DNA of 64,000 nucleotides, from the NCBI GenBank assembly GCA_027488975.1, contig JAIYAQ010000023.1:1-64000 (forward strand), in the 5' to 3' direction. The DNA comes from Cyanobium sp. E1_MAG_00006. GTDB lineage: Bacteria > Cyanobacteriota > Cyanobacteriia > PCC-6307 > Cyanobiaceae. Positions 12,982-31,833 of this stretch are shown here, piece by piece; within the stretch, counting starts at the first letter, position 1; the number at the start of each line of letters is the position of its first letter. The notes under the pieces are model-generated. The model did no database searches. It saw nothing but the letters and a program-made list of their open reading frames with translations, and was not told the DNA's origin. A program made the position numbers and the translations under genes.

Positions 12982-13491
12982 ATGGTCAGACCGATGCTCG
13001 AGCTGCTGCCGCCGCTCAACGACCACAACCTTCCCTGGATGGACACGATCCATCCGATCGTCGTTCACTTCGTGATCGCGATGGCGCTGATTGCCTTCGT
13101 GTTCGATGTGATCGGCGTTGTCTGGCGGAAACCCGCCCTGTTCGAAGCCAGTTTCTGGAACCTGCTGTTCGCCACCGGAGCGATCTTCGTGGCGATCATC
13201 TTCGGCCAGGTGGAGGCCGGCCTGGCCTCGCCCTACGGCGCCTCCCGCCACATCCTCGACATCCACACCACCATCGGCTGGTCGCTGGCGGGTGTGCTGT
13301 CGCTGCTCACCGGCTGGCGCTACGTGCTGCGCAATCGCGATCCCGAGGTGCTGCCGGCGACATTCCTCGGGGCCGGTGCCCTGGTGAGCTCCCTGATCGT
13401 GGTTCAGATGGTGCTGGGCGATCGCCTGATCTGGACCTATGGCCTGCACACCGTGAAGGTCGTGGCCGCTGCGCGTGCGGGGCTGATCTGA
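12982..13491 (+). CDS. DUF2231 membrane protein (first copy) of the terminal-oxidase cluster
   Basis: 169 residues, four membrane helices. It opens the first long plus-strand run with IHPIVVHFVIAMALIAFVFD, the DUF2231 signature in which histidines sit at the membrane face, and continues with HTTIGWSLAGVLSLLTGWRY. Its function is unknown, but its coupling (TGATG) to a paralogue and then to ctaC/D/E points to the quinol oxidase, for example in assembly, haem/copper delivery or redox relay. The histidines (HP..VH, HTT, LHTVK) could bind haem; this is not shown. Confidence 0.85.
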   Translation: MVRPMLELLPPLNDHNLPWMDTIHPIVVHFVIAMALIAFVFDVIGVVWRKPALFEASFWNLLFATGAIFVAIIFGQVEAGLASPYGASRHILDIHTTIGWSLAGVLSLLTGWRYVLRNRDPEVLPATFLGAGALVSSLIVVQMVLGDRLIWTYGLHTVKVVAAARAGLI

Positions 13492-14174
13492 TGGCTGCGG
13501 TTCTGTCGTCGTGCCTCTCCCTGGCCTCGGCTGTGCCTTTCGGTCTGCCCTTCGCTCTGGCTTATGCGCCGGAGGCCTCGCCGATCGAGCAGATCGCCGA
13601 TGAGCTGGGAGCCAATGGGCTGCCCTATGCCCTGCCGATTCACCCGAATCTGGTGCACCTCACCATCGGGTTGTTCGTGATTGCGATCGCCTTTGATGTG
13701 GTGGGCGCCCTCTATCCACTTGAGAAGCGGGTGTTCCGCTTCCTGGACCTGCCGATCACCCGCGGTGGTTTCCACGATGTGGGCTGGTACAACCTGCTGG
13801 CCTGCTGTCTGGTCACTTACCTCACGGTGGCGGTGGGCTTCTACGAGATGCTCACTGCTGTGCCGTTGCCGGGGGTGACGAGCACCTTCGGCCTGGGCAG
13901 CATGACCACCATGCTTGTGCATGGGGTGGGCGGCGTGCTGCTGCTGGCGATCATCACGGCGATGACCGTGTGGCGCGGCTTCCAGCGCTTCGCCTGGCGG
14001 CGCGATATGGGCCGTCAGGTTCAGTGGCTCTACCTGCTGGTGGGCGTGGTCATGTTTGCCCTGCTGGGACTTCACGGCACCCTCGGGGCCCAGATGGCGG
14101 CTGAGTTCGGTGTGCACATCGCCGCCGATCAGCTGCTGCAGGCCGGTGCTGATCTGAATACCGCGCTCCCATGA
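13491..14174 (+). CDS. DUF2231 membrane protein (second copy) of the terminal-oxidase cluster
   Basis: 227 residues, paralogous to the preceding gene but longer. The shared signature is IHPNLVHLTIGLFVIAIAFD. A possible signal-like N-terminus of about 25 residues precedes it; helices around WYNLLACCLVTYLTVAVGFYE, MLVHGVGGVLLLAIITAM and WLYLLVGVVMFALLGLHG follow. Its ATG overlaps the first copy's stop by one base. Its own stop overlaps an ATG that opens a six-codon reading frame leading into ctaC. Confidence 0.85.
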   Translation: MAAVLSSCLSLASAVPFGLPFALAYAPEASPIEQIADELGANGLPYALPIHPNLVHLTIGLFVIAIAFDVVGALYPLEKRVFRFLDLPITRGGFHDVGWYNLLACCLVTYLTVAVGFYEMLTAVPLPGVTSTFGLGSMTTMLVHGVGGVLLLAIITAMTVWRGFQRFAWRRDMGRQVQWLYLLVGVVMFALLGLHGTLGAQMAAEFGVHIAADQLLQAGADLNTALP

Positions 14175-14187
14175 ACAGCCTGTCGTC

Positions 14188-15126
14188 ATGAACAGCTCCG
14201 CTGGATCGTCGATCAACCGGGCCGCTGTGCTCGGGCTCAGCCTCTGGGTGGGAGTGCTGGTGCTGCTCAGCCACTGGATGGGCCAGCAGGCCCACCATTG
14301 GCTACCGGTGCAGGCCTCCAATGCCGCACCGCTGGTGGATGGCCTGTTCAGCTTTGAGACGGCCATCGGCACCTTCGTGTTCGGCGGGGTGTTGTCGGTG
14401 GTGGGGTGGGTGCTGCTGTTCAACCGCGCCGAGAAGTACGACGCCACCGATGCTGTGCCGATTGAGGGCAACACACGCCTGGAGGTGATCTGGACGGCGA
14501 TTCCCTTCGTGCTGGTGATGGCGATTGCCGCCTATGCGATGCAGGTGAGTCACCGCCTTGGCTTGGTGGGTCCGATGGAGCACATTCATGCCCACAGCCC
14601 GATCGAGATGCAGGGGGGCTATGCCGGCGACCGGCTGCCGAGTGAGCAGATCGAGGTGATCGCCCGTCAGTGGTCGTGGGAGTTCCGCTATCCGGGCAGC
14701 AACGTCTCCACCACCGAGCTGCACCTGCCCATCGATCAGCCCGTCACCTTCCGGCTCACGTCGGACGACGTGCTGCACGGCTTCTACATCCCGGCCTTCC
14801 GGCTCAAGCAGGACGTGATTCCCGGCCGGGCGATCGACTTCAATCTCACCCCCACCCGCGAAGGGCGGTATCGCCTGCGTGATTCCCAGTTCAGCGGCAC
14901 CTGGTTCGCCGCCAATCAGGCCGATGTGGTGGTGGAGAGCCGCGAGGCCTACGACGCCTGGTTGAAGCAGGCCGCTGCTCAGCCGCTGCAGCCCGGGCTG
15001 AGCCTGGCGGTGCAGGAATACGCCGAGCGCCAGCAGCGCAACACCTCCGGCTGGGCCACCGTGCCTCCCGCGCCGCCGCCCCAGGTGAACGTGCCCGGAT
15101 CCAGCGACCTCCCCCACGACGCCTGA
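14188..15126 (+). CDS. ctaC: Alternative respiratory terminal oxidase subunit II, CuA-less
   Basis: 312 residues. Two membrane helices (about 10-32 and 52-75, then EVIWTAIPFVLVMAIAAYA) anchor a periplasmic/lumenal cupredoxin domain starting near EQIEVIARQWSWEFRYPGS. In cytochrome c oxidases the C-terminal loop carries the two CuA cysteines. Here the equivalent RLRDSQFSGTWFAANQADVV has no cysteine, His or Met set, so CuA cannot form. This is the known hallmark of the cyanobacterial alternative oxidase (ARTO, CtaCII), thought to oxidise quinol. The proline-rich tail is unusual in length. It is followed 10 bp later by ctaD. Confidence 0.9.
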   Translation: MNSSAGSSINRAAVLGLSLWVGVLVLLSHWMGQQAHHWLPVQASNAAPLVDGLFSFETAIGTFVFGGVLSVVGWVLLFNRAEKYDATDAVPIEGNTRLEVIWTAIPFVLVMAIAAYAMQVSHRLGLVGPMEHIHAHSPIEMQGGYAGDRLPSEQIEVIARQWSWEFRYPGSNVSTTELHLPIDQPVTFRLTSDDVLHGFYIPAFRLKQDVIPGRAIDFNLTPTREGRYRLRDSQFSGTWFAANQADVVVESREAYDAWLKQAAAQPLQPGLSLAVQEYAERQQRNTSGWATVPPAPPPQVNVPGSSDLPHDA

Positions 15127-15136
15127 GCCCTTCGCC

Positions 15137-16813
15137 ATGACCATCGCCACCTTCCCGCCCGAACCGCCCCCGCCGCCGAGCTGGACCCGTTACCTGGGCT
15201 TCAGCACCGATGCCAAGGTCATCGGTATTCAGTACATCGTTACCGCCTTTTTCTTCTTTCTGATCGGCGGTCTGCTGGCGATGGTGATCCGCGGTGAGCT
15301 GATCACTCCCGCCGCCGATCTGGTGGATCGCAGCGTCTACAACGGCATCTACACGATGCACGGGACGATCATGCTGTTCCTGTTCATCTTTCCGGTGCTG
15401 AACGGGCTCAACAACCTGCTGATCCCCACGATGATCGGCGCACCGGATATGGCCTTCCCGCGGCTGAATACCGCCGCGTTCTGGCTGGTGCCGGTTTTCG
15501 GCACGCTGTTGATCGCCAGCTTCTTCGTGCCCGGTGGTCCGGCCACGGCGGGCTGGTGGAGCTATCCGCCGGTGAGCATCCAGAACCCGCTCGGCCACTT
15601 GATCAACGGTGAATCGATGTGGATCCTGGCGGTGGCCCTTTCCGGCATCTCCTCGATCATGGGCGCGGTGAACTTCGTCACCACGATCCTGCGGATGCGG
15701 GCGCCGGGCATGGGGTTCTTCCGCATGCCGGTGTTCTGCTGGACGGCTCTCGCCGCCCAGAGCCTGCAGCTGATCGGCCTGCCGGCCCTCACCGGTGGAG
15801 CGGTGATGCTGCTGATGGATCTGAGCTTCGGCACCAGCTTCTATCGGCCGGAGGGCGGCGGTGATCCGGTGCTCTACCAGCACTTCTTCTGGTTCTATTC
15901 GCACCCCGCTGTTTATGTGATCATCCTGCCGGTGTTCGGCATCTTCTCGGAGCTCTTCCCCGTCTACAGCCGTAAGCCCCTGTTCGGCTATGTGTATGTG
16001 GCGGTGGCGTCTTTCATCATCGTTGGCCTGGGGCTGATCGTCTGGGTGCATCACTTTTTCTCCAGTGGCGTGCCCCAGTGGATGCGTGATCTGTTCATGG
16101 CCACCACCATGCTGATCGCCGTTCCCACCGGCGTGAAGGTGTTCGCCTGGCTGGGAACGCTCTGGGGCGGCAAGCTGCGGCTCACCACACCGATGCTGTT
16201 CTGCATCGGCGGCCTGGTGAACTTCGTGTTCGCCGGCATTACCGGCGTGATGCTGGCCACGGTGCCGATCGACATTCACGTGTCCAACACCTACTTCGTG
16301 GTGGGCCACTTCCACTATGTGATCTACGGCGCTGCGGTGATGGGCATCTTCGCCGCCGTCTACCACTGGTTCCCCAAGTTCACCGGTCGCATGCCCTACG
16401 AGGGCCTTGGCAAGCTGCACTGCCTGCTCACCTTCGTTGGCGCGAATCTCAACTTCCTGCCGATGCATCCGCTCGGCCTGATGGGCATGCCACGGCGCGT
16501 GTCGAGCTATGACCCGGAGTTCGCCTTCTGGAATGTGATCGCCAGCCTGGGGGCGTTCCTGCTGGGTGTGTCAATCATCCCCTTCCTGCTGAACATGCTG
16601 AGCTCCTGGATTCGCGGCCCCCGCGCCACCCATAACCCCTGGGATGCCATTGGTCTGGAGTGGCTGCTGCCTTCGCCGCCGCCGGAGGACAACTTCGGCG
16701 AGGAGGTTCCCACCGTGATCAGTCGCCCCTACGGCTATGGCAGCGGTGAACCGCTTGTGGAACACCAGGCGGAGATTGAACGCCGACTCCAGCTCCAGGA
16801 GGCCGCCGCATGA
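15137..16813 (+). CDS. ctaD: Alternative respiratory terminal oxidase subunit I (haem-copper)
   Basis: 558-residue catalytic subunit with about 12 membrane helices; it reduces O2 to water with haem a/o and CuB. CuB ligands are visible as HPAVYVIILPVFG (His, with the cross-linked Tyr) and VWVHHFFSSG (His-His). The haem pair is in VGHFHYVIYGAAVMG, and the low-spin haem His is in YTMHGTIMLFLF. HPAVY replaces the HPEVY of proton-pumping A1 oxidases, so the Glu at that place is absent. Its 3' end overlaps ctaE by ATGA. Confidence 0.96.
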   Translation: MTIATFPPEPPPPPSWTRYLGFSTDAKVIGIQYIVTAFFFFLIGGLLAMVIRGELITPAADLVDRSVYNGIYTMHGTIMLFLFIFPVLNGLNNLLIPTMIGAPDMAFPRLNTAAFWLVPVFGTLLIASFFVPGGPATAGWWSYPPVSIQNPLGHLINGESMWILAVALSGISSIMGAVNFVTTILRMRAPGMGFFRMPVFCWTALAAQSLQLIGLPALTGGAVMLLMDLSFGTSFYRPEGGGDPVLYQHFFWFYSHPAVYVIILPVFGIFSELFPVYSRKPLFGYVYVAVASFIIVGLGLIVWVHHFFSSGVPQWMRDLFMATTMLIAVPTGVKVFAWLGTLWGGKLRLTTPMLFCIGGLVNFVFAGITGVMLATVPIDIHVSNTYFVVGHFHYVIYGAAVMGIFAAVYHWFPKFTGRMPYEGLGKLHCLLTFVGANLNFLPMHPLGLMGMPRRVSSYDPEFAFWNVIASLGAFLLGVSIIPFLLNMLSSWIRGPRATHNPWDAIGLEWLLPSPPPEDNFGEEVPTVISRPYGYGSGEPLVEHQAEIERRLQLQEAAA

Positions 16814-17412
16814 CCAGCACCACGCCACTCGCCGGCAGCGCGCCGGCCAGTCCAGAGGCGGCCCACGGGCACGCCAACCACAACCTCACCGGCTTCATCA
16901 TCTTTCTCTGCTCCGAGAGCGTCATCTTCCTGGCGTTCTTCAGCGGCTACGCCATCCTGCGCACCTCCGCCCTCGACTGGCTGCCCCCTGGGGTGGAGGG
17001 CCTGGAGTGGCGCACGCCACTGGTGAACACCGCCGTGCTGATCTCCAGTTCCGGCACGATGGTGCTCGCCGAGCAATTCAAGGCTCGCGAGAAGCTCTGG
17101 CTGTTCCGCGGTTTTTGGCTGCTGACCATGGCCATGGGGGGCTATTTCCTCGTCGGACAGGCGGTGGAGTGGAGCGGCCTGGCCTTCGGCTTCAGTTCCG
17201 GCACCTTCGGCGGCACCTTCTATCTGCTGACGGGTTTTCACGGCCTGCACGTGGCCACCGGCATTCTGCTGATGGCGATCATGTTGGTGAAATCATTCAT
17301 CCCAGGCAATTACACCGGTGGTGAACAGGGCGTTCAGGCCACATCCCTGTTCTGGCACTTTGTGGATGTGATCTGGATCATTCTTTTCCTGCTGCTTTAC
17401 GTCTGGCGATGA
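16810..17412 (+). CDS. ctaE: Alternative respiratory terminal oxidase subunit III
   Basis: 200 residues, five membrane helices: the short cyanobacterial form of subunit III. Typical segments are FIIFLCSESVIFLAFFSGYA, GGTFYLLTGFHGLHVATGIL and SLFWHFVDVIWIILFLLLYV. It supports stability and proton uptake of subunit I in better-studied oxidases. ATGA overlaps join it to ctaD upstream and, unusually, to the GMC flavoprotein gene downstream. Confidence 0.95.
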   Translation: MTSTTPLAGSAPASPEAAHGHANHNLTGFIIFLCSESVIFLAFFSGYAILRTSALDWLPPGVEGLEWRTPLVNTAVLISSSGTMVLAEQFKAREKLWLFRGFWLLTMAMGGYFLVGQAVEWSGLAFGFSSGTFGGTFYLLTGFHGLHVATGILLMAIMLVKSFIPGNYTGGEQGVQATSLFWHFVDVIWIILFLLLYVWR

Positions 17413-18923
17413 TCATCGACGACCGGCATTACAACGTGATCGTGATCGGCAGTGGTGCCGGTGGCGGTACCTTGGCGGGCCAGCTGGCGGCCTCCGGCAG
17501 GACGGTGCTGCTGCTGGAACGGGGCGGGTCGATGCCGCTGGCTGATCAGAACGTTGCCGATGTCGACCTGTTCCGCAAGGATCGCTACCACCCCGGTGAG
17601 CAGTGGTTCGGCACCGACGGTGATCCCTTCTCGCCACAGACCATCTACGCGCTGGGCGGCAACACCAAGATCTGGGGTGGTGTGCTGGAGCGGATGCGCG
17701 AACGCGAGTTCGCGGCCGTGCCGCTGCAGGAGGGGCCGGTGCCGGGCTGGGAGCTCACCTATGGCGACCTGGCCCCGTATTACGAGCGAGCTGAGGCCCT
17801 CTACCGGGTGCACGGCAAGGCCGGTGTGGATCCCACGGAACCGCCGCGCAACGGCGATTACCCCTTCATGCCGAAGCCGATCGAGCCGTTCATGCAGGAG
17901 CTGCGCAGCTGCCTGGAGCGCCAAGGCACCCACCCCTACGACCTGCCGCTGAGCTGGTCGGAATCGGCTGCTGATCCCAGCGGTGATGCCGAGCTGTTCG
18001 GCGTCGATCGGGCGCGCCAGGCCGCCACGGTGACGGTGCGCGAGCGGACACGGGTGCGGCGCCTGCATGTGAATCCCTCCGGCCACGAGGTGCGCGGCGT
18101 TGAGGCGGAGATTGATGGCAACACCTGGCTGTTTAGCGCCGATGCCGTGGTGCTGGCCGCTGGTGCGATCAACAGCGCCGAGATTCTGCTGCGCTCGGCT
18201 ACTGAACACCACAGCCGCGGCCTGGCCAACGGCTCGGATCAGGTGGGCCGCAACCTGATGAAGCCTCAGCTCACCTCGGTGATTCAGCTGGCGGCCGCCG
18301 CCAACTCCGGCCGCTACGCCCGCAGCCTCGGCATCACCGACTACTACTGGGGCGATCAGAACGTGAGCTTCCCGCTCGGTTCGATCGCCAGTGGTGGCGG
18401 TGTGCTTCAGGACGCTCTATTCGCCGAGTCGCCACCAGTGCTCTCGCTGGTGACCAAGCTGATGCCCAGCTTCGGACTGGAGCAACTTGCATCGCGCTCT
18501 GTGGTCTGGTGGGCCACCAGCGCCGTTCGGCCTGATCCGCACAACCGGCTGACGCTGCGCGGCAATCACCTGCAGATCCACTACCTGCCGAACAACCGCG
18601 AGGCCCACGATCGGCTCGTGTACCGCTGGATCGACACCCTCAAGCAGGTGGAAGCCGATCCCCTCTGTGAGGTGGTGAAGCCTGCCCCCACCCATCCCCG
18701 CGGCGAGGCCCCGCTCACGGTGATGGGCAGCGTCTGCGGCACCTGCCGCATGGGCTCCAACCCCGCCACCTCGGTGGTGGATCTGCAGGGGCGCTGCCAT
18801 GAGCTGACCAACCTCTGGATCGCCGATGCCAGCGTCTTCCCCAGCTGCCCGTCGGTGCCGATCGGTCTCACCGTGATCGCCAATGCCCTGCGCATCGGTG
18901 ATCACCTACTGGCTTCCCTCTGA
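17409..18923 (+). CDS. GMC-family FAD oxidoreductase lacking the usual catalytic residues
   Basis: 504 residues. The N-terminal Rossmann FAD site (VIVIGSGAGGGTLAGQLA) and the FAD-linking GGNTKIWGG loop are intact. Compared with the paralogue at 21700, three sites are altered. The active-site His (GHQAGTCR there) is Ser441 in GSVCGTCRMG. The second catalytic residue (Asn in AVNPSLT) is Pro484 in SVPIGLT. The five-cysteine patch is missing (WSESAADPSGDAEL). It may bind FAD without the normal alcohol oxidation and could be a structural or electron-transfer partner. Its ATG overlaps the ctaE stop (ATGA), tying it to the oxidase; GH63 follows after 16 bp. Confidence 0.92.
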   Translation: MIIDDRHYNVIVIGSGAGGGTLAGQLAASGRTVLLLERGGSMPLADQNVADVDLFRKDRYHPGEQWFGTDGDPFSPQTIYALGGNTKIWGGVLERMREREFAAVPLQEGPVPGWELTYGDLAPYYERAEALYRVHGKAGVDPTEPPRNGDYPFMPKPIEPFMQELRSCLERQGTHPYDLPLSWSESAADPSGDAELFGVDRARQAATVTVRERTRVRRLHVNPSGHEVRGVEAEIDGNTWLFSADAVVLAAGAINSAEILLRSATEHHSRGLANGSDQVGRNLMKPQLTSVIQLAAAANSGRYARSLGITDYYWGDQNVSFPLGSIASGGGVLQDALFAESPPVLSLVTKLMPSFGLEQLASRSVVWWATSAVRPDPHNRLTLRGNHLQIHYLPNNREAHDRLVYRWIDTLKQVEADPLCEVVKPAPTHPRGEAPLTVMGSVCGTCRMGSNPATSVVDLQGRCHELTNLWIADASVFPSCPSVPIGLTVIANALRIGDHLLASL

Positions 18924-18939
18924 CCACGCCGCCACTGCC

Positions 18940-21642: not shown

Positions 21643-21699
21643 CAGACAACGGACAGATCTGGTTGCCGTTTCTAGCTTGCGGGTATCGGCGGCATTTCT

Positions 21700-23301
21700 G
21701 TGGACGCTCTGCTCTCTCCGACCCAGCTTCAGAAACCTGAGGCCACCCACTTCGATCTGCTGATCATCGGCAGCGGCGCTGGCGGTGGCACTCTGGCGCG
21801 GGTGCTGGCTCCCACTGGGCTGCGCATCCTGATTCTGGAGCGGGGCGACTGGCTGCCGCAGGAAGCGCAGAACTGGGATGCTGATGAGGTGTTCCAGAAG
21901 GGCCGCTACATCTCACGCGACATCTGGTACGACGGCAAGGGCAACCCTTTCCAGCCGGGCAGCCATTACTTCGTTGGTGGTGCCACCAAGATGTACGGCG
22001 CCCACCACTTCCGTCTGCGTCAGCGCGATTTTGAGGCGCTTGAACATCACGACGGCGTCTCGCCGGCCTGGCCGCTGCGCTACAGCGACTTCGAGCCCTG
22101 GTATCAGCAGGCCGAGGCGATGTATCACGTGCACGGCCTGCGCGGTGAGGATCCCACGGATCCACCCAGCCCGGTGCCCTATCCGCATCCGCCGATCAGT
22201 CATGAACCGCGCATTAAGAAGCTGGCCGATGACCTGCGCGCTGCCGGCCTGCACCCCTTCCATGCCCCCAGTGGCGTGATGCTCGATGAGAGCAACATGC
22301 CTTATAGCCGTTGCCGGCGTTGCAATAACTGTGATGGGTTCCCCTGCCTGGTGCATGCCAAGGGGGATGCGGAGGTCTGCGGCGTGCGGCCGGCCCTGGG
22401 TAGCAGCGCCAACGTGTCGCTGCTGACACGCGCCGAGGTGAAAAGGCTGCATACCGATGCCAGCGGCCGCACGGTGACTGGGGTGGAACTGCTGCGCGAT
22501 GGCGAGGAGCTGCGTTACTCCGCCGACATCGTGGTGGTGAGCTGCGGTGCCGCCAACAGTGCCCGGTTGCTGCTGATGTCGGCCAACGACAAGCACCCCC
22601 GCGGCCTGGCCAATGGCTCCGATCAGGTGGGACGCAACTACATGTTCCACAACAGCAAGGCGGCGGTGGCGCTGTCGCACGAGCCGAACCCCACCGTGTT
22701 CCAGAAGACGATTTCGATCAACGACTGGTATTTCGGTGATGCCGATTACGACTACCCGATGGGCAATATCCAGATGACCGGCAAGACCCGTGGCGCGATC
22801 ATGAAGGGGTATGCGCCTCTGGAAACTTTCCTGATGCCCAACTGGAGCATGGATGACATTGCGGCCCATACCCTGGATTTCTGGCTCACCACCGAGGACC
22901 TGCCCGACCCCAACAACCGGGTGACGATCGATTCAGCTGGTCACATTCACCTCGACTACACGGTGAATAATCAGACCTCCGCCAATCGGCTGTGGGGCCG
23001 CCTGGAGGGCATGCTCGACAAGCTCTACCTCAAGAAGCATCTAGTGGAGCGGCAGATCTACATCAAGAACCCGATGGGCCTCTCGGCCGTTGGCCATCAG
23101 GCCGGCACCTGCCGCTTCGGCACCGATCCGGCCACCTCAGTGCTCGATGTGAACTGCAAGGCCCACGAGCTCGACAACCTCTACGTGGTGGATACGAGCT
23201 TCTTCCCCAGCATCGGCGCGGTGAATCCCTCGCTCACGGCGATCGCCAATGCGATCCGGGTGGGCGAGCATCTCAAGGAGCGCTTGGCGGTGCAGGCCTG
23301 A
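21700..23301 (+). CDS. GMC-family FAD dehydrogenase with cysteine cluster
   Basis: 533 residues, GTG start. FAD site LLIIGSGAGGGTLARVLAP (residues about 20-37). Catalytic His466 lies in GHQAGTCRFGTDPATS and Asn509 in AVNPSLTAIANAIR, so this copy looks active. A cysteine patch (Cys205, 208, 211, 216 and 227; CRRCNNCDGFPC) resembles the Fe-S-binding insertion of bacterial FAD-glucose dehydrogenases, which pass electrons to cytochromes or quinone rather than O2. No signal peptide is seen. Likely substrates are sugars or sugar alcohols, judged from the neighbouring GH63 and lactonase genes. Confidence 0.93.
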   Translation: MDALLSPTQLQKPEATHFDLLIIGSGAGGGTLARVLAPTGLRILILERGDWLPQEAQNWDADEVFQKGRYISRDIWYDGKGNPFQPGSHYFVGGATKMYGAHHFRLRQRDFEALEHHDGVSPAWPLRYSDFEPWYQQAEAMYHVHGLRGEDPTDPPSPVPYPHPPISHEPRIKKLADDLRAAGLHPFHAPSGVMLDESNMPYSRCRRCNNCDGFPCLVHAKGDAEVCGVRPALGSSANVSLLTRAEVKRLHTDASGRTVTGVELLRDGEELRYSADIVVVSCGAANSARLLLMSANDKHPRGLANGSDQVGRNYMFHNSKAAVALSHEPNPTVFQKTISINDWYFGDADYDYPMGNIQMTGKTRGAIMKGYAPLETFLMPNWSMDDIAAHTLDFWLTTEDLPDPNNRVTIDSAGHIHLDYTVNNQTSANRLWGRLEGMLDKLYLKKHLVERQIYIKNPMGLSAVGHQAGTCRFGTDPATSVLDVNCKAHELDNLYVVDTSFFPSIGAVNPSLTAIANAIRVGEHLKERLAVQA

Positions 23302-23352
23302 GGCTGGTCGTGCTGATCCTGGCCGTGCCGATCCTGGTGTAGCCGCTGGGGC

Positions 23353-23853
23353 TCATGCCCCGAGCGCCATACGCACCAGATCAGCGATCAGCAGGTTGTC
23401 GAGGGAGAGGAAGCCACCGCCGCAACCCATCAGCACCAGGCACATCACCACGTACATGGCGGCCTTCTCCCAGCTCGGGGGCTCGCCGGTTCCCATCGGG
23501 CCGGCGTAGTCGCCATCGGGAATCAGGTAGGGGTCCGGGGCGATGAAGGGAAAGCCGCTGCGGATCTCCAGCAGCATCGCGTAGGCCATCGACACGAGGA
23601 TGCCGAAGGCGGCCAGCGGTGTGAGCAGGCCGAGGATCAGGGCAATGCCGCCGGCCCACATCGACCCGGCGGAAAGGAAGCAGAGCCAGGCCGGTGTCTT
23701 CAGGCCCTGGGCCCAGGTGTTGAGGTTGCGGAGCTTGGGCCAGCCGTGGCGGATGAAGCAGAGCCCCATGAACAGCCGCAGCAGCAGCAAGGCGGCCTGG
23801 GCAACAGCGGAGGGAGCGGCGGGAACCAGCAGCTCCACCACGGTGATCTCCAT
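23353..23853 (-). CDS. DoxX-family membrane protein
   Basis: 166 residues with four membrane helices. The DoxX signature LLLLRLFMGLCFIRHGWPKL (residues 22-41) and a LGLLTPLAAFGILVSMAYAM helix are clear. DoxX proteins are quinone-linked or redox-associated membrane proteins, poorly characterised except as a thiosulfate:quinone oxidoreductase subunit in archaea. The loop FPFIAPDPYLIPDGDY with Pro/Asp is unusual. It is last in a minus-strand series that starts with RidA, 69 bp after the VOC gene. Confidence 0.88.
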   Translation of the reverse strand: MEITVVELLVPAAPSAVAQAALLLLRLFMGLCFIRHGWPKLRNLNTWAQGLKTPAWLCFLSAGSMWAGGIALILGLLTPLAAFGILVSMAYAMLLEIRSGFPFIAPDPYLIPDGDYAGPMGTGEPPSWEKAAMYVVMCLVLMGCGGGFLSLDNLLIADLVRMALGA

Positions 23854-23922
23854 TGGTCTGACCCCAGCAGGCGGAATGCCCGCAAGCTAGGTCGCGTGCC
23901 CGAATCCGGCAGCGGGATTGCC

Positions 23923-24936
23923 TCAGTCGCTCACCAGCTGCAGGGCATGGCCATCAGGATCGCGGATCTGCAGGGCGCGGCTGAAGCCCAGCTGTGTTGC
24001 CAACTCAGGCTCCAGCTCAAGCGGCCCGCTGAAGCATCGGCCACCGAAGCTCTCCACCTGTGATGTGATCGTCTCCAGATCACTGACGGCCATGCGGATC
24101 TGCCAATGGGCGCCATCGGCTGCGCTCAGATCGATTGGCAGGGGACGGCCCCCTGTGGGCTCGCGGTAGTCGAGGCATTCAATGCCGGCGCCGCTCGCAC
24201 AGCGGTGGCTGCTGATGTGCACGCGGGTGCCCTCGAGCCCATCCAGGCGGTCCTGTTCGATGCCGCTGTTGACGCCATCACCCCCCAGCTGCAGCCCCAG
24301 CAGCTCCTCATAGAACCGGCAGCTGCGCGCCGTATCGGCGTTGGCGATGGCGCTGTGGTCGATTCCCAGCACGGGGGAGTCGCCCAGGGCGGTGGCGGCT
24401 CTGGCCTGCTCATGCCAGCGGGCGTCGCCCTTGTCGGCCGGGAACTGCAGCAGCTCCAGGCAGTGGCCCTCGGGGTCATGGAACTTGTAGGCCTGGATGC
24501 CGGCGGCGGCCTGATTCCAGCTGGGCAGGGTCTGGGGTGCGCTGGAGATCGGCAGCAGCGTGCCGGCGGCCACGGCGGCCTCGATCGGTCCCGCAGCGGC
24601 TGCCATGTCGGCCACCACCAGGCAGATGTGCTGGAACCAGAGGTCGCAGCTGCGCGAATCGGCCGGAATCGGCTGCCCAGGCCGCAGGCCTGGCCCCAGC
24701 TCCAGCACCTGGGTGAGTTCGAGGGTTTCCTGGCCGATGTGCAGCTGCTGTAGCTGCAGCTGGCTGTTCGGCAGCCCCAGCAGCGCGGCGTAGGCCCCGC
24801 CGTTGATGGTTGCGCGCTTGCCGCGCTGGAAGCCGAGCTGCTCGCAGTAGAAGGTCGCCAGGCTGTCGGCATCACGGCAGCTGAAGCCGATGCTGCGGAT
24901 GTGGGGCAGGGCGGTTGGGGGCAAGGTGGTGCTCAT
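23923..24936 (-). CDS. Two-domain VOC (glyoxalase/dioxygenase superfamily) protein
   Basis: 337 residues made of two vicinal-oxygen-chelate halves (about 10-165 and 188-335). Each half has the beta-alpha-beta-beta-beta pattern; the end of the first shows KFHDPEGHCLELLQ and of the second IRDPDGHALQLVS, both with candidate metal ligands. The likely metal-binding His residues are near HIRSIGFSC and GIDHSAIAN. Activity could be a glyoxalase, isomerase or ring-cleavage dioxygenase. ATGA overlap with the GlcG-like gene implies coupled translation. Confidence 0.85.
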   Translation of the reverse strand: MSTTLPPTALPHIRSIGFSCRDADSLATFYCEQLGFQRGKRATINGGAYAALLGLPNSQLQLQQLHIGQETLELTQVLELGPGLRPGQPIPADSRSCDLWFQHICLVVADMAAAAGPIEAAVAAGTLLPISSAPQTLPSWNQAAAGIQAYKFHDPEGHCLELLQFPADKGDARWHEQARAATALGDSPVLGIDHSAIANADTARSCRFYEELLGLQLGGDGVNSGIEQDRLDGLEGTRVHISSHRCASGAGIECLDYREPTGGRPLPIDLSAADGAHWQIRMAVSDLETITSQVESFGGRCFSGPLELEPELATQLGFSRALQIRDPDGHALQLVSD

Positions 24937-25373
24937 CGCGTGGACTGATCGCTGAGGGCAGCCAGAACGGCTACCCCGGCGGCGCCGATGGCGCCATCCA
25001 CCTCGGGCGTCATGCCGGAGACGCCGACGGCGCCGAGGGTCTGCCGGTTCAGCTGCAGCGGCAGTCCGCCAGCCATGGCCACGGCCGGCTGGCCGAACAG
25101 GCCGGAGAGCTGCAGCAGCGCCGGTCGCTCCCCGTTGATGGCCTGCTCCTGCTCGGCGGTGGGCTTGCCGTTCAGGGCGGCCATCCGTGCCTTGGCTGCT
25201 GCTGCTTCCGTGCTGGCGGGGCTGGCGCCGTCGAGGCGCTCCAGCAGCAGCAGGTGGCCGCCAGCGTCGCAGATGGCGATGCTCACGGCGGCACCGCGCC
25301 GCTCTGCCTCGCCCCGTGCGGCTGCAGCGATGCTGCGGGCATCGGCGAGATCGAGCTGAGGGCTGGCGTGCAT
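24933..25373 (-). CDS. GlcG/HbpS-family protein
   Basis: 146 residues, a single GlcG/HbpS domain. It contains VSIAICDAGGHLLLLERLDG, SPASTEAAAAKARMAALNGK and GAVGVSGMTPEVDGAIGAAG, which are typical of the family. Members include the GlcG of glycolate-use operons and the haem-binding sensor HbpS of Streptomyces; biochemical roles vary. Here it lies among sugar-oxidation genes; ligand unknown. Its 3' end is coupled to the VOC gene (ATGA), and a Nif11 gene lies 7 bp upstream. Confidence 0.85.
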   Translation of the reverse strand: MHASPQLDLADARSIAAAARGEAERRGAAVSIAICDAGGHLLLLERLDGASPASTEAAAAKARMAALNGKPTAEQEQAINGERPALLQLSGLFGQPAVAMAGGLPLQLNRQTLGAVGVSGMTPEVDGAIGAAGVAVLAALSDQSTR

Positions 25374-25380
25374 CGCCGCT

Positions 25381-25638
25381 TCAACCCCAGACGATCCGCA
25401 TCAGCCAGAGGTGACCCTCCAGCTCGACCCCGGCGGCGGCGGCCTCCAGATCGCTCTCCTCGAGCCGGAGGGTGGCCTCGGCCTGGTGCTTTACCAGGTC
25501 GACCCCGGTGAAGGCAAAGCCGAGGTCGGCCCCCAGTGCCGCGATGGCATTGAGGTTGGGGCAGGCGCTGAAGCGCTGCAGCAGGGCGGGGTCGCCCTTC
25601 ACCTGCTTCAGGAAGGTTTCGAGCTGGGGATTGGCCAT
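25381..25638 (-). CDS. Nif11-domain protein within the sugar-oxidation run
   Basis: 85 residues. The Nif11 domain is at 1-50: LETFLKQVKGDPALLQRFSA followed by AIAALGADLGFAFTG. A 35-residue C-terminal part, rich in Glu and Leu and ending HLWLMRIVWG, has no cysteines or double-glycine cleavage site, so it is not an evident lanthipeptide precursor. It lies 3 bp from the SMP-30 gene and 7 bp from the GlcG gene, within an apparently coupled operon. Confidence 0.85.
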   Translation of the reverse strand: MANPQLETFLKQVKGDPALLQRFSACPNLNAIAALGADLGFAFTGVDLVKHQAEATLRLEESDLEAAAAGVELEGHLWLMRIVWG

Positions 25639-25641
25639 GGG

Positions 25642-26553
25642 TCAGACGGCGGAGCGGGTGTTGGTGAACAGGGCGTAGAGCGCTGAGGAGGCACAGAGGA
25701 AGAGTCGATGGCCGTACCGACCGCCGAGGCAGACATTGGAGACGCGCCGAGGCACGAGCACCTTGCCCAGCAGGGTTCCATCGGGGGCGATCACATGCAC
25801 CCCATCGGCGGCACCGCACCAGAGGTTGCCGTGCTCATCCACGCAGAACCCATCGGCCCAGCCGGGGCTGATCTTGTGGAACGGCTCGCCGCCGCTGAGG
25901 GTCTGTCCATCGCTGTTCACCTGGAAGCGACGGATGAACTGGCGGGGTTCACTGGCTCCCGCGGCACCGGATTCCGCCACGTAGAGCAGCTGCTCATCCG
26001 GGGAGAACGCCAGACCGTTGGGTCCATCGAAATCCGTGGCCACCGCCGTGATCGAGCCGGTGTCTGGATCCAGCCGGTAGACGGCCGGAGGCTGCTCGGA
26101 CTCCTGGCGGCCGCCCTCGTAGTCGTTCATCAGGCCGTAGAGCGGATCGGTGAACCAGATCGAGCCGTCTCGTTTCACCACCACATCATTGGGGGCATTG
26201 AGGCGATGACCGCGAGCCTCGCGCACCAGGGTCGTGATGCTGCCGTTGTGCTCGACGCGGGTGAGGCTGCGGCTGCTGTGATGGCACTGGATCAGGCGAC
26301 CCTGCAGGTCGCGGACCTGGCCATTGGCGAAATCGGAGGGGTCGAGGAAGGTGCTGACACCATGCGCCTCACTCCAGCGGAGGGTGCGGTTGTTGGGGAT
26401 GTCGTTGAACATCAGGCAGTGGTGATCGCCGAACCACACGGGCCCTTCCAGCCAGCGGAAGCCTTCCGCCAGCAGCTCGAGCTCCGCGTTGAACAGCACC
26501 AGCTGCTCGAAGCGCGGGTCGTAGCTCTCGGTGCACGACGATGGCTGCCTCAT
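25642..26553 (-). CDS. SMP-30/gluconolactonase-family hydrolase
   Basis: 303 residues, six-bladed beta-propeller. Metal-site candidates are Glu36 (WLEGPVWFGD), the Asn in LNAPNDVVVK, the Asn in DGPNGLAFSPDE, and the Asp in DGFCVDEHGNLW. Family members hydrolyse sugar lactones such as glucono-1,5-lactone to the acid. In this cluster it would open the lactone made by the GMC or SDR dehydrogenases. ATGA overlap with the cupin gene upstream. No signal peptide. Confidence 0.92.
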   Translation of the reverse strand: MRQPSSCTESYDPRFEQLVLFNAELELLAEGFRWLEGPVWFGDHHCLMFNDIPNNRTLRWSEAHGVSTFLDPSDFANGQVRDLQGRLIQCHHSSRSLTRVEHNGSITTLVREARGHRLNAPNDVVVKRDGSIWFTDPLYGLMNDYEGGRQESEQPPAVYRLDPDTGSITAVATDFDGPNGLAFSPDEQLLYVAESGAAGASEPRQFIRRFQVNSDGQTLSGGEPFHKISPGWADGFCVDEHGNLWCGAADGVHVIAPDGTLLGKVLVPRRVSNVCLGGRYGHRLFLCASSALYALFTNTRSAV

Positions 26554-27011
26554 CGGAAGAATCCGGGTGGAGCCTGTCGCCAGGCGTTGTCGTTGCGCTG
26601 GATGATCAGCTGCACACAGGGCTCATCGCCCACCTGGGCGGAGAGGTGACCCTGATGGCCTTCGGCTGAGCTCGTGCAGCCCTGGTCGCCACCGAAGGAA
26701 TACTCACCGGCGCGCATGATCACCAGCTGGCCATCCATGCTCTGCACCGACCAGGCACCGCGCAGCACGTAGATCCACTTCGGCACATGGTTCTCATGCC
26801 AGTCGGCGGTCCAGCCCACCGGCAGGTAGGTGATGAAGGCATTGCCCTGATCGAACAGGGGCCTCGAGAACTGCGGTGAGTCGCCCGGCCCCAGTTGGCC
26901 CAGCTGGAAGTCGTCGATCGTGCATTGCTGCTGGCGGCTGATGCCGTCCTCACCCGTCCAGAGGTGCCAGTAGGTCTCCGGTTGCGGGGCGAGGCTGAAG
27001 GGATCGCTCAT
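26550..27011 (-). CDS. Cupin-domain protein
   Basis: 153 residues, one cupin barrel. Segments that fit are DWHENHVPKWIYVLRGAWSV (first motif, with His-x-x-x-His-like ligands) and MRAGEYSFGGDQGCTSS (second motif). The N-terminal 40 residues mention a WHLWTGEDG stretch. Cupins include sugar isomerases, dioxygenases and binding proteins; here a sugar- or lactone-related role is inferred only from context. It is separated from RidA by 6 bp and coupled to the SMP-30 gene. Confidence 0.85.
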   Translation of the reverse strand: MSDPFSLAPQPETYWHLWTGEDGISRQQQCTIDDFQLGQLGPGDSPQFSRPLFDQGNAFITYLPVGWTADWHENHVPKWIYVLRGAWSVQSMDGQLVIMRAGEYSFGGDQGCTSSAEGHQGHLSAQVGDEPCVQLIIQRNDNAWRQAPPGFFR

Positions 27012-27017
27012 GGCAGG

Positions 27018-27422
27018 TCAGTCCTTGATGGCGATGGCGGAAATCTCCAGCTGAATGCCGAGCACCAGCGCGGCCACCTCCACCACGGCCCGCGAGGGGT
27101 AGGCCTGGGGATCGGGGAAATACTCCTGCCAGACGGCATCGAAGGTGTCGAGCGTGTTGATGTCGGTGAGGTACACCGTGGCGCTCACCACATGCTCGAA
27201 ACCGAAGCCGGCCTCCTCGAGCACCGCCTGCATGTTGCGCATCACCTGCCGCGATTCAAGGGTGATGTCGCCGTCGCCCACCTTCTGATTGGTCAGCGGG
27301 TCGACAGGCAGCTGGCCGGTGATGAACAGCATGTTGCCGATCTGGAAGCCCTGGCTGTAGGAGGCCACGGGCTTGGGAAAGCGATCGCTGTGTATCGCCC
27401 GACGCGTCACACCGGCTGCCAT
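27018..27422 (-). CDS. RidA-family (YjgF/YER057c) enamine/imine deaminase
   Basis: About 134 residues from the ATG at 27422. Motifs present are YSQGFQIGNMLFITGQLPVD, the family-typical NMQAVLEEAGFGFEHVV and YPSRAVVEVAAL, in which the Arg is the residue binding the substrate carboxylate. RidA proteins hydrolyse reactive 2-aminoacrylate-type enamines. It is the first gene of the minus-strand run to DoxX, diverging from the glucose-dehydrogenase-like gene. Confidence 0.9.
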   Translation of the reverse strand: MAAGVTRRAIHSDRFPKPVASYSQGFQIGNMLFITGQLPVDPLTNQKVGDGDITLESRQVMRNMQAVLEEAGFGFEHVVSATVYLTDINTLDTFDAVWQEYFPDPQAYPSRAVVEVAALVLGIQLEISAIAIKD

Positions 27423-27451
27423 TGGGAATCCCTGGGAGGAGGCCGCCTTCA

Positions 27452-27468
27452 CCGTAGGGATCCCACGG
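27452..27468. promoter_or_regulatory. Palindrome in the RidA/SDR divergent promoter region
   Basis: CCGTAGGGATCCCACGG, with a perfect GGGATCCC core (27457-27464) and flanking CCGT/ACGG arms offset by one unpaired position. It sits between the divergent ridA run and the glucose-dehydrogenase-like gene, where an operator is expected. A second GGGAATCCC lies at 27424-27432, next to the ridA start. The binding protein is unknown. Confidence 0.4.
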
Positions 27469-27564
27469 GGAATGTCACCGTTATGTCATCGCTGTTGCAT
27501 CGCAAGCACGATCCGCGCCATCGACCTAGCGTTCAGCAAACACGATTCACTCTCTCCGCTGGCC

Positions 27565-28371
27565 ATGACTGCCTCCAATCCCTACGCCCTCGAAACCCTC
27601 TCCAACCTGCTCAAGGGCAAGGTGATCATCGTGACGGGAGGGAACAGCGGCATTGGCAAGTCGATTGTGGAAACCGTGGCACGCCTCGGTGCCCGCGTGG
27701 TGATCGACTACCGCTCCCATCCCGAGGCCACCGAGGCGATCGAAGAGGAGATCGGTGAGCTGGGCGGCACCTGCATCGGTGTTCAGGCCGACGTGGGCAA
27801 ACTCGACGACCTTCAGCGCCTGGTGGATGCCGCCGTGTCCCAATACGGGCGGCTTGATGTGATGGTGAACAACGCCGGCATCGAGACCCGCACCTCGATC
27901 CTCGACACCACGCCGGACGACTTCGACAAGGTGCTCAACGTCAACCTGCGCGGTGTGTTCTTCGCCACCCAGTACGCCGCCAAGCAGATGATCGCCCAGG
28001 GCAGCGGCGGCCGCATCATCAACATCTCCTCGGTGCATGAGGACTGGCCGATGCCCAACAACACCCCGTACTGCGTGGCCAAGGGTGGTGTGCGCATGCT
28101 CACCCGCACCGCCGGTGTGGAGCTGGCGGGCAAGGGGGTGACGATCGTCAACGTGGGGCCCGGTGCCGTGGCCACGCCGATCAACGATTCGACGATGAAC
28201 GACCCCGAGCTGCTGGCCAAGCTCAATGCCGCCATTCCGATGGGGCGCATGGCCCAGCCGGATGAGATCGCCCGGGTGGTGGCCTTCCTGGCGAGCGATG
28301 CCGCCAGCTACATCACCGCCACCAGCATCTTCGCCGACGGCGGCATCATGCAGAGCAGCCCCGGCCTCTGA
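27565..28371 (+). CDS. Glucose 1-dehydrogenase-like short-chain dehydrogenase/reductase
   Basis: 268 residues, classical SDR. Rossmann motif TGGNSGIGK (about 24-32), NNAG at 102-105, catalytic Ser155/156 in NISSVHEDW, Tyr169 and Lys173 in YCVAKGG. The SSVHE, GPGA-x-x-TPI and IPMG segments match bacillary glucose 1-dehydrogenases, which oxidise beta-D-glucose to the lactone with NAD(P). This suits the lactonase on the opposite strand. Arg at the end of DYRSHP suggests NADP may be usable. The ATG at 27565 gives the family-standard N-terminus. Confidence 0.9.
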   Translation: MTASNPYALETLSNLLKGKVIIVTGGNSGIGKSIVETVARLGARVVIDYRSHPEATEAIEEEIGELGGTCIGVQADVGKLDDLQRLVDAAVSQYGRLDVMVNNAGIETRTSILDTTPDDFDKVLNVNLRGVFFATQYAAKQMIAQGSGGRIINISSVHEDWPMPNNTPYCVAKGGVRMLTRTAGVELAGKGVTIVNVGPGAVATPINDSTMNDPELLAKLNAAIPMGRMAQPDEIARVVAFLASDAASYITATSIFADGGIMQSSPGL

Positions 28372-29089: not shown

Positions 29090-29142
29090 AGCCGATCGTG
29101 GTGGTGCCAATCGTGGTGAGGCGCACACCAGCGCCAGCCATC

Positions 29143-30486
29143 ATGGGTCGGTCTGAATCGGCGGCTCAGGTGTTCCGTTCTCGCGATCCGATCCGCGTTC
29201 GCCTGCCTGCGCTGCTGCGCCAGCTGGGGCAGCTGGCTTTGCTGGGCCTGCTGGTGGGGCTTGCCTGCCTGCCGTTCAACCTGCTGGATCGCTGGCAGGA
29301 CGCCCTGCTGCATCAGCTGCCCAGCTTCAGCGGCAAGCCGTGGCGGTTTGAGACGCTCCTGCTGGCCGCCTCACCGATGTTGACGGTGCCGCTGCTGCTG
29401 CTCCTGCAACGGGGCGTCTGGGCTGCTGGGGCTGGCTCCGGCATCCCCCAGACGATGGCCAGCGTGGAGGATCCGGCTCAGGCCGACCGCTTGCTGGGAC
29501 CCTGGCCCACCCTGAAGCGGCTGGGGCTCTGGGCGATCGCCACCCTCAGCCTGCTGCCCCTGGGCCGTGAGGGCCCGGTGGTGCAGGTGGGGGCCGCTGT
29601 GGCACAGGGCCTGCGGCGCCGCTTCCCCCGTTTCCTGGGATCGCTCAGCCAGGCGGATCTGCTGGCGGTGGCCGCCGGTGCCGGTCTGGCAGGCGGTTTC
29701 AACACGCCGCTGATGGGGGTGGTGTTCGTGGCGGAGGAATTCACCAACCGCTTCGCGGCGGCGCTGGTGTGGCCGGCTCTGGTGATCTGCGGTGTGGCGG
29801 CGGCCTTCAGCAACCTCACCGGTCAGCCGCAGTTTGCCCTTGGCACCCTCGGCGTGGAGCCGATCGAGATGATGCAGGTGCTGTGGGCGATCCCGATCGG
29901 GGTGCTGGGCGGCCTGCTGGGTGCTGGCTTCGGGCTGTTGCTGCTGGCGTTCACACGCTTCTGCCTGGGTTGGAGCCGTCGTCATCCGCTTGCTCTCGGC
30001 CTGGCGGTGGGGGCGCTGCTGAGCCTGTTCCTGCTGGTGAGCGGTGGTGGCGCCGGTGGCGACGGCGAGGCGCTGATGGCGCTGATGATCAGTGGCGGCA
30101 GCCCGGCTGGCCCGTTGGGCGATGGCCTGTTCGGCGATCTGATCATCCTGGTGGTGCGGGTGCTGGGGCCGGTGCTGGCCCTGGGCACAGGCATCCCCGG
30201 CGGGCTGATCGATCCGGCCTTCGCCTTCGGTGCCCTGCTGGGTCGGGGTGTGGGTGAACTGGCGGGAGTGGCGGGCCTGGGGCTGGCCCTGGGCATGACG
30301 GCCGGGTTGGCCGGCGCCACCCAGCTGCCGGTGATCACGGTGTTGTTCGCCCTGCGCCTGGCCGGTGATCAGCAGCTGCTGCCGGGGATGCTCGTGGCCT
30401 CGGTGCTGGCGGCGCTGGTGAGCCGGCTGGTGCTGCCCCAGCCCATTTATCACGCCCTGGCGGAGGTCACGCGCCCTGCTCCGTGA
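29143..30486 (+). CDS. ClC-family chloride/proton antiporter
   Basis: About 447 residues (an in-frame GTG at 29098 is an alternative start), with around ten to twelve helices. Signature sequences are GSGIPQTMA, PLGREGPVVQVG (gating Glu), GTGIPGGLIDPAFAFGA, and a late Tyr in PQPIYHAL. The proton-transfer Glu is present in VVFVAEEFTNRF. Both glutamates point to a 2Cl-/H+ exchanger rather than a channel. It follows the K-channel-like gene closely, suggesting shared ion-homeostasis expression. Its 3' end overlaps the convergent NDH-2 gene by 20 bp. Confidence 0.93.
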   Translation: MGRSESAAQVFRSRDPIRVRLPALLRQLGQLALLGLLVGLACLPFNLLDRWQDALLHQLPSFSGKPWRFETLLLAASPMLTVPLLLLLQRGVWAAGAGSGIPQTMASVEDPAQADRLLGPWPTLKRLGLWAIATLSLLPLGREGPVVQVGAAVAQGLRRRFPRFLGSLSQADLLAVAAGAGLAGGFNTPLMGVVFVAEEFTNRFAAALVWPALVICGVAAAFSNLTGQPQFALGTLGVEPIEMMQVLWAIPIGVLGGLLGAGFGLLLLAFTRFCLGWSRRHPLALGLAVGALLSLFLLVSGGGAGGDGEALMALMISGGSPAGPLGDGLFGDLIILVVRVLGPVLALGTGIPGGLIDPAFAFGALLGRGVGELAGVAGLGLALGMTAGLAGATQLPVITVLFALRLAGDQQLLPGMLVASVLAALVSRLVLPQPIYHALAEVTRPAP

Positions 30487-31789: not shown

Positions 31790-31833
31790 GGAAACCAGGC
31801 AGTCCACTCACGCTAGGGAGATTTGCTCAAACG

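Follow-up and report, generated by a model that had tools for sequence, protein, structure and literature searches.

A CuA-less terminal oxidase, an altered GMC flavoprotein and a separable, probable sugar-oxidation gene set at one locus of Cyanobium sp. E1_MAG_00006

Introduction

In Anabaena PCC 7120, the type-1 alternative respiratory terminal oxidase (ARTO; Qox/Cox3) is encoded by the operon alr2729-alr2730-coxB3-coxA3-coxC3, in which two extra genes precede CuA-less ctaCDE genes (PMC6616624). ARTOs are also known in marine picocyanobacteria, where another study links them to low iron and considers, as ideas on their role, Fe(III) reduction and the disposal of electrons when iron is scarce (PMC10119275). 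Among flavoproteins of the GMC family, MftG of mycobacteria is reported to pass electrons toward the respiratory chain (PMC11778925). Here we analyzed a stretch of 64,000 nucleotides from Cyanobium sp. E1_MAG_00006 (contig JAIYAQ010000023.1, positions 1-64,000; hereafter the window), focusing on a locus at 12982-28371 that encodes a CuA-less oxidase, two GMC flavoproteins (GMC1 and GMC2), a GH63-like glycoside hydrolase and a lactonase.

Taken together, the genes look like a compact line of respiration leading from sugar to oxygen, built of two modules. We judge it moderately probable that it is a two-module respiratory unit, in which a type-1 ARTO with its companions is accompanied by a separable sugar-oxidation set that would feed the ARTO via quinone. 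The observations behind this reading are gene order, conservation, the missing CuA site, residue differences and recurrence in other phyla.

Results

Gene order on the plus strand

Open reading frames (ORFs) and Pfam profile matches gave the plus-strand order DUF2231-DUF2231-ctaC-ctaD-ctaE-GMC1-GH63-GMC2, with the following features.

12982..13491, plus strand: DUF2231 membrane protein 1, four-helix, with four invariant His (PF09990, 114 bits; model with a predicted local distance difference test score (pLDDT) of 87.7)
13491..14174, plus strand: DUF2231 membrane protein 2 (PF09990, 122 bits)
14188..15126, plus strand: ctaC, oxidase subunit II without CuA (PF00116/PF02790)
15137..16813, plus strand: ctaD, subunit I of a heme-copper oxidase (PF00115; COX1 510 bits)
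16810..17412, plus strand: ctaE, subunit III (PF00510)
17409..18923, plus strand: GMC1, a GMC flavoprotein linked to the oxidase, with neither the catalytic His-Asn pair nor the Cys motif
18940..21642, plus strand: GH63/MGH1-like glycoside hydrolase (PF22422 67 bits; PF03200, the Pfam GH63 domain, 35.8 bits against a cut-off of 22.4)
21700..23301, plus strand: GMC2, GMC dehydrogenase with the His-Asn pair and the Cys motif (PF00732/PF05199; full-length match to the flavin adenine dinucleotide (FAD) glucose dehydrogenase 6a2u)

This run had been proposed in a first-pass annotation of the sequence, and all its genes were found with the overlaps and gaps described there. The two DUF2231 genes share one base (TGATG), gaps of 13 bp and 10 bp separate the second DUF2231 gene from ctaC and ctaC from ctaD, and ATGA overlaps join ctaD to ctaE and ctaE to GMC1. 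GMC1 and GH63 are 16 bp apart when the GH63 start is taken as 18940 (an assigned start, as the longest ORF opens at 18883 and would overlap GMC1), and the GH63-GMC2 gap is 57 bp. Promoter and terminator scans of the locus stayed at or near chance level and were uninformative on transcription.

The CuA-less oxidase and its conserved neighborhood

The first-pass annotation had also called the oxidase CuA-less. In agreement with this, the CuA motif was absent from all 58 ctaC proteins, the window's included, and was detected beside the other COX1 gene of the genome as a positive control, with a pattern that is not very specific and also matched two meaningless frames near that control gene. The oxidase probably takes electrons from quinol. 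Residues H75, H256, H305, H306, H391 and H393 of ctaD, which we take to be the heme and CuB ligands, are conserved in 54-56 of 57 alignment rows. Histidines are likewise conserved in the DUF2231 proteins, at H24, H29, H95 and H156 of copy 1 (60 of 60) and at H51, H56, H144 and H209 of copy 2 (59 of 60). In the model of copy 1, their positions in the helices put all four close to one end of the bundle, where they may form a metal or heme site. Assignment of DUF2231 to a known heme protein was rejected, as fold searches returned generic helical bundles with no match at E 0.001, and we claim no cofactor.

Across a wider set of 386 genomes sampled from the phylum, GMC1 was present in 48, each scored by one full-length match. 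In 47 of these the second DUF2231 gene (DUF2231b) is found no more than 8 kb upstream and on the same strand, and the contig of the 48th starts inside the operon, with ctaD and ctaE still there. We fetched 40 GMC1 loci, namely all 23 full-length matches from other families and 17 from the window's family. All 40 have ctaE and ctaD upstream of GMC1, and 39 also have ctaC and the DUF2231 pair, the exception (L065) starting at a contig edge. The spacing between ctaE and GMC1 ranges from the 4-bp overlap of the window up to 2.7 kb elsewhere, with other genes between. In a set of 80 loci from named genomes, GMC1 was the best match in 69, of which 58 have ctaD and ctaE upstream, two have ctaE at a contig edge, five are untestable at contig edges and four have no oxidase upstream (Petrachloros L167, Leptolyngbya PCC 7375 L185, Stenomitos L186 and Richelia L198). 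DUF2231-DUF2231-ctaCDE-GMC1 is an old cyanobacterial oxidase unit, in which GMC1 accompanies the oxidase often, though not always.

Variants of this arrangement were also seen. Calothrix parasitica NIES-267 (L205, 1-11485) has tandem oxidase-GMC1 units, with ctaE-GMC1 followed by DUF2231-DUF2231-ctaCDE-GMC1. In two loci (L130 and L131) the DUF2231 pair is followed by an NDH-2-like gene and no ctaCDE operon was found beside it (in L131 a 25% COX1 stretch is all that shows); the DUF2231 pair may thus also act independently of the oxidase. The cydAB genes lie between ctaE and GMC1 in L062 (reverse strand) and just behind ctaCDE-GMC on Trichormus variabilis plasmid A (L215, 9726-12190), which brings two quinol oxidases together with a single GMC gene. 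In L210, too, cydAB is close by.

The ARTO-GMC unit of Trichormus variabilis plasmid A further lies near feoB and a TonB receptor gene. This placement would suit an alternative in which GMC1 and the oxidase form a plasma-membrane iron-reduction or redox-balance unit and the sugar set is secondary, as would the published association of ARTO with Fe(III) reduction and with low-iron Prochlorococcus (PMC10119275). However, a 265-residue FeoB fragment used as query matched nothing in 140 other loci, and we regard this alternative as improbable.

GMC1 has an altered active site

The window's GMC2 was aligned with 154 distinct GMC proteins, and the catalytic His and Asn columns were matched by eye to H1147 and N1190 of fructose dehydrogenase, residues mutated by the depositors. 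At these positions the window's GMC1 has S and P. None of the 101 GMC proteins encoded directly behind ctaE (the ctaE slot) has an intact pair: 100 are without the Asn, and L171 keeps the Asn but has N in place of His. The variation includes 22 GMC1-typed rows (one being the distant L159 protein) that carry the His with Ser replacing the Asn; more often in GMC1 the His is gone as well. Outside the slot, the pair is intact in 45 of 45 GMC2-type proteins, including the window's GMC2 and 14 relatives behind GH63. Another residue, H400, is found in 101 of 101 slot proteins versus 3 of the 45 intact-pair proteins; because these two groups are defined partly by the pair itself, a Fisher test of the contrast was set aside. 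GMC2 also has a C-x2-C-x7-C motif that aligns to the Fe-S loop of 6a2u, with different spacing, and the full Cys motif is absent in 95 of the 101 slot proteins. Six slot proteins closer to GMC2 keep this motif yet are without the Asn, and with the plasmid protein of Trichormus variabilis, which behaves likewise, seven proteins in total do so; the pair and the motif therefore vary independently.

The overall GMC fold is retained in the predicted structure. The nearest structures to the GMC1 model (pLDDT 88.4, predicted template modelling score 0.92) were those of fructose dehydrogenase and FAD glucose dehydrogenase, and against the large subunit of fructose dehydrogenase the model gave Z 46.6 and a root-mean-square deviation of 3.4 over 470 aligned residues (Foldseek E 8.8e-40). 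With 71.8 bits against a cut-off of 387.45, GMC1 falls well short of the MftG equivalog profile of NCBIfam.

The lack of an intact pair in all slot proteins, and of the full Cys motif in 95, could mean that GMC1 is a structural or regulatory subunit without redox chemistry. Against this, the FAD-binding motif is kept, a new invariant His is present, and with 82 positions invariant over 47 sequences GMC1 is under its own constraint rather than decaying; we consider a purely structural or regulatory role unlikely. From these residues, GMC1 would no longer oxidise sugars in the usual way and may work for the oxidase as a flavoprotein, either in electron transfer or on the quinone side. In-frame stops were reported in some GMC1 genes, as well as in some GH63 genes. 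For GMC1 the extracted frames were full length (496-525 amino acids) and the stops look like alignments overrunning the true end.

In a tree of 68 GMC proteins built with the catalytic columns removed, the intact proteins fell on one side of a single branch (Shimodaira-Hasegawa-like approximate likelihood ratio test support 100), and the Cys-keeping slot proteins adjoined the intact-pair side. Rooting with Salipiger and Gluconobacter GMCs gave an outgroup branch 2.65 changes long that attaches among GMC1 rows of the window's family, and the Salipiger row itself aligns as I/A at the catalytic columns. The direction of change (loss rather than gain of the pair) is therefore taken from the presence of the pair in the wider GMC family and not from the root. 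The simplest reading of the sequences would be a single take-up by the oxidase operon, followed by loss of the Asn and then of the Cys motif.

The proposed sugar-oxidation set in cyanobacteria

Downstream of GMC2 the gene order on the minus strand is DoxX, VOC/glyoxalase, HbpS-like, SGL, cupin and RidA, followed by a divergent SDR gene. A minus-strand run with an SMP-30 lactonase and a divergent dehydrogenase gene had been described in the first-pass annotation, and the SGL and SDR genes correspond to it.

23353..23853, minus strand: DoxX membrane protein (PF07681)
23923..24936, minus strand: VOC/glyoxalase-fold protein (PF00903)
24933..25373, minus strand: HbpS-like protein (PF03928)
25642..26553, minus strand: SGL (SMP-30/gluconolactonase) lactonase (PF08450, 161 bits)
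26550..27011, minus strand: cupin (PF07883, 25.1 bits, just under the Pfam cut-off of 27.2)
27018..27452, minus strand: RidA family protein (PF01042)
27565..28371, plus strand: SDR dehydrogenase (PF13561/PF00106; the ORF opens at 27373, and the start at 27565 is assigned from the SDR domain)
29098-30486: CLC (chloride channel) gene near the sugar set
30467..31807, minus strand: NDH-2-like pyridine nucleotide:quinone oxidoreductase (PF07992; PF22366 below its cut-off)

In the window's family we sampled 201 genomes and measured distances between match ends. GMC1 is present in 94 of them. With a threshold of E 1e-100, 62 have a GH63 relative, which is of the window's type in 58, a count that leaves out four genomes with only the more distant copy as well as all second copies. 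Forty-eight of the 58 window-type GH63 genes lie directly behind GMC1 (-4 to +74 bp) and ten lie elsewhere or on another contig. The neighborhood of oxidase, GMC1 and GH63 is thus kept outside this genome, as would be expected of the linkage that the first-pass annotation had put forward. The genome itself has a second GH63-like gene, 47% identical, on contig C15 (22703-25330). Module 2, consisting of GH63-GMC2 with DoxX, VOC, SGL, cupin and SDR, is separable from the oxidase unit.

Among 18 loci of GMC2 relatives fetched from other families, GH63 lies within about 1.6 kb of GMC2 in seven (L095, L096, L097, L098, L104, L109 and L112). DoxX and SGL are both near GMC2 in six (L103, L105-L108 and L110), together with VOC in L105, L107, L108 and L110. 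In L103 and L106 a GMC2 with intact pair is next to an oxidase operon of a more distant type, with ctaD 63% identical. By sequence, GH63 has one weak solved relative. The N-termini of GMC2 and GH63, judged by eye only, showed no obvious signal peptide, so that the chemistry is probably cytoplasmic.

GMC2-type sets in other bacteria

From 43 records, we hand-picked 18 plasmid loci of GMC2 relatives for different genera, with two from one Caballeronia strain and two from Mesorhizobium; the slot-type Trichormus locus L215, Thioclava L227, the two outgroup loci L226 and L228 and the unannotated Paraburkholderia PREW-6R locus L229 are not counted among them. The His-Asn pair is intact in all ten relatives covered by the residue check (L216-L225). 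A GH15 or GH63-type glucosidase is encoded in nine of the 18 loci (L216, L217, L219-L222, L224, L230 and L236), and a further three carry a "glucoamylase family" annotation (L218, L223 and L233) and one an alpha-amylase (L225). SGL occurs in eight loci, and DoxX genes recur near GMC2 relatives, in nine.

Five of these loci include a terminal oxidase, namely a cyo-type enzyme in Paraburkholderia, Caballeronia and Roseomonas, cydAB in Streptomyces, and subunits III-IV in Lichenicola. Subunit II of the three cyo-type oxidases is without the CuA motif. The Paraburkholderia and Caballeronia sets comprise a cyo-type oxidase, SDR, GH15, SDR, GMC2, DoxX, cupin, SGL and VOC. In Roseomonas, VOC-SGL-cupin-DoxX and GMC2 run in opposite directions, and GMC2 shares 4 bp with the gene that follows it, a member of the cyo-type operon. 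Lichenicola has oxidase subunits III-IV (of unassigned donor type, the record ending there), GMC2, GH15 and SDR. The Streptomyces stretch has GH15, an annotated gluconokinase, GMC2, cydAB and SDR, with no SGL or DoxX in the stretch, and its NDH-2-like protein is 41% identical to that of the window. The window's SGL is 56-58% identical to SGL of the Paraburkholderia and Roseomonas sets, and its cupin and VOC proteins are 38-45% and 32-42% identical, respectively, to their homologues in three sets elsewhere.

Related arrangements include GMC2-zwf-GH63-DedA-chloride channel on an Aureimonas plasmid (L230, 7986-15878), a CLC gene being also present near the window's set and in Paraburkholderia L216. 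On Caballeronia pSBC2-3 (L237, 768-8572), a DUF2231 gene and an FAD oxidoreductase gene lie about 6 kb upstream of a GMC2-DoxX-cupin-SGL set.

Discussion

A possible route from sugar to oxygen

Module 1 would consist of a CuA-less oxidase (type-1 ARTO) with two DUF2231 membrane proteins and GMC1. In module 2, glucose would be freed inside the cell by an enzyme resembling alpha-glucosidases, from family GH63 at this locus and from GH15 in several other bacteria. Both families release glucose from alpha-glucosides by inversion, which would yield the beta anomer, the form used by FAD glucose dehydrogenases. GMC2, with FAD and a probable Fe-S cluster, would then oxidise glucose to the lactone, which SGL would open to gluconate. 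The electrons might pass to a membrane partner, then to quinone, to ARTO and finally to oxygen; DoxX is the best candidate for that partner, and its co-occurrence with GMC2 makes it a possible quinone-side protein. The substrate, the product, the cofactors, the electron path and the role of GMC1 are inferred. Glucosylglycerate, which had been suggested as a substrate, is a guess, and GH15 replaces GH63 in several other bacteria.

The joint sugar-oxidation set and oxidase envisaged in the first-pass annotation gains support for GMC2, which has an intact pair and recurs elsewhere in the company of glucosidase, lactonase and SDR genes. It does not hold up for GMC1, which had been counted as a member of the sugar set: GMC1 is without the catalytic pair and tracks the oxidase in many cyanobacteria where neither GH63 nor GMC2 adjoins. 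As judged from these residues, only GMC2 is likely to be a sugar dehydrogenase, and GMC1 likely belongs to the oxidase.

Evidence for other readings

Several observations weigh against a two-module unit in which the sugar set feeds ARTO. On the side of the oxidase, the four GMC1-type proteins without oxidase upstream (L167, L185, L186 and L198) also have no pair, so that the change marks the GMC1 subfamily and not the slot alone. DUF2231b is present in 99 of the 386 genomes, only 48 of them with GMC1, which indicates that the oxidase does not always need GMC1; 20 DUF2231b loci without GMC1 (13 from family f7) had no GMC gene within the fetched stretch, some stretches being cut by contig ends. 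On the side of the sugar set, 46 of the 94 GMC1-bearing genomes of the window's family have no GH63 directly behind GMC1, and in L081, which belongs to the window's own genus, GH63 is missing behind the oxidase and GMC1. The GMC2 relative of Acaryochloris (L224) is without the Cys motif. No small subunit or cytochrome c of FAD sugar dehydrogenases was present among the 20 ORFs scanned (10164-31807), and no GntK-type gluconokinase was found in this genome (no TIGR01313 match). Edd was considered and rejected, because its TIGR01196 match of 258.6 of 708 bits is below cut-off and probably marks a related dehydratase. The genome holds one FGGY kinase, of unassigned substrate.

Adjacency to an oxidase is also of limited weight. 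No terminal oxidase lies within the fetched stretch of 13 of the 18 plasmid loci. Furthermore, two of seven hand-picked other GMC loci, a comparison that is not neutral (several look like sugar GMCs) and does not consist of random genes, have a quinol oxidase (one of them also with a ctaD-coxB pair), and oxidase adjacency is therefore not specific to GMC2. These two are GMC-SDR-GH15-(two genes)-cyoABCD in Caballeronia Lep1P3 and a Deinococcus locus with cydAB; GMC genes in general may tend to adjoin quinol oxidases. The GMC of the Lep1P3 plasmid (L241, 7259-17302), set beside SDR, GH15 and cyoABCD, is a distant one that comes with a gluconate 2-dehydrogenase subunit 3.

Such data leave room for another explanation, namely that the substrate of module 2 is not glucose but, for example, a product released from an osmolyte or another glycoside, and that the module is only co-regulated with an oxidase fed by NDH-2 and other dehydrogenases. 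The missing gluconokinase and the plasmid loci without oxidase would fit it, and the VOC, cupin, RidA and HbpS-like genes would be superfluous for the conversion of glucose to gluconate. An NDH-2-like gene (>38% identity) is an occasional oxidase neighbor, in 14 of 125 loci holding this ctaD type. Nevertheless, the glucosidase, "glucoamylase family" and SGL genes of the plasmid loci point to glucose, as does the gluconokinase annotated beside the Streptomyces set, and we consider a non-glucose substrate rather unlikely. We thus favor, to a moderate degree, a glucose-oxidising module that feeds ARTO.

Implications

A broader proposal can be offered only tentatively. GMC1 could be an unrecognised sixth component of type-1 ARTO, that is, a sugar-dehydrogenase-like flavoprotein rebuilt by loss of the Asn, gain of an invariant His and, in most lineages, removal of the Fe-S motif; at the same time GMC2-DoxX could be a glucose:quinone oxidoreductase docked onto different quinol oxidases (ARTO, cyo-type and perhaps cyd) in more than one phylum. 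Both the flavoprotein that co-occurs with ARTO, whose active site is altered, and the neighboring sugar set provide named genes bearing on ARTO function. The presence of comparable sets close to other oxidases suggests that glucosides can be burned in a modular way without glycolysis, including in the ecologically weighty picocyanobacteria, which, if this is true, would have a one-locus route from a stored alpha-glucoside to oxygen.

Comparison with known systems

No paper joining ARTO with a GMC gene or with a sugar set was found among the open PMC papers searched, subscription oxidase reviews being outside this scope. MftG keeps its active-site His and is linked to mycofactocin genes, whereas GMC1 in the window has no such His and falls short of the MftG cut-off. 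GMC2 resembles FAD glucose dehydrogenase and fructose dehydrogenase (6a2u and 7w2j) in its GMC fold and His-Asn pair, with Cys residues of different spacing at the place of the Fe-S loop, but differs in having neither a small subunit nor a cytochrome c gene among the neighbors scanned, and GMC1 differs in being without the pair and the Cys motif. The GMC-SDR-lactonase sets on plasmids of Paraburkholderia, Caballeronia and Roseomonas are built of the same families with a cyo-type oxidase adjoining. However, Paraburkholderia and Caballeronia have GH15 for GH63, the Roseomonas stretch is without annotated glucosidase or SDR, and none has GMC1. Compared with the type-1 ARTO of Anabaena, the locus is distinguished by a GMC1 gene that overlaps ctaE and by the sugar set that follows; the available sections of the Anabaena report make no mention of GMC (PMC6616624). 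The two are alike in having two genes ahead of CuA-less ctaCDE. Here these are the DUF2231 pair, alr2729 and alr2730 are presumably DUF2231 genes as well, and the order of DUF2231 pair and ctaCDE is also annotated on Trichormus variabilis plasmid A.

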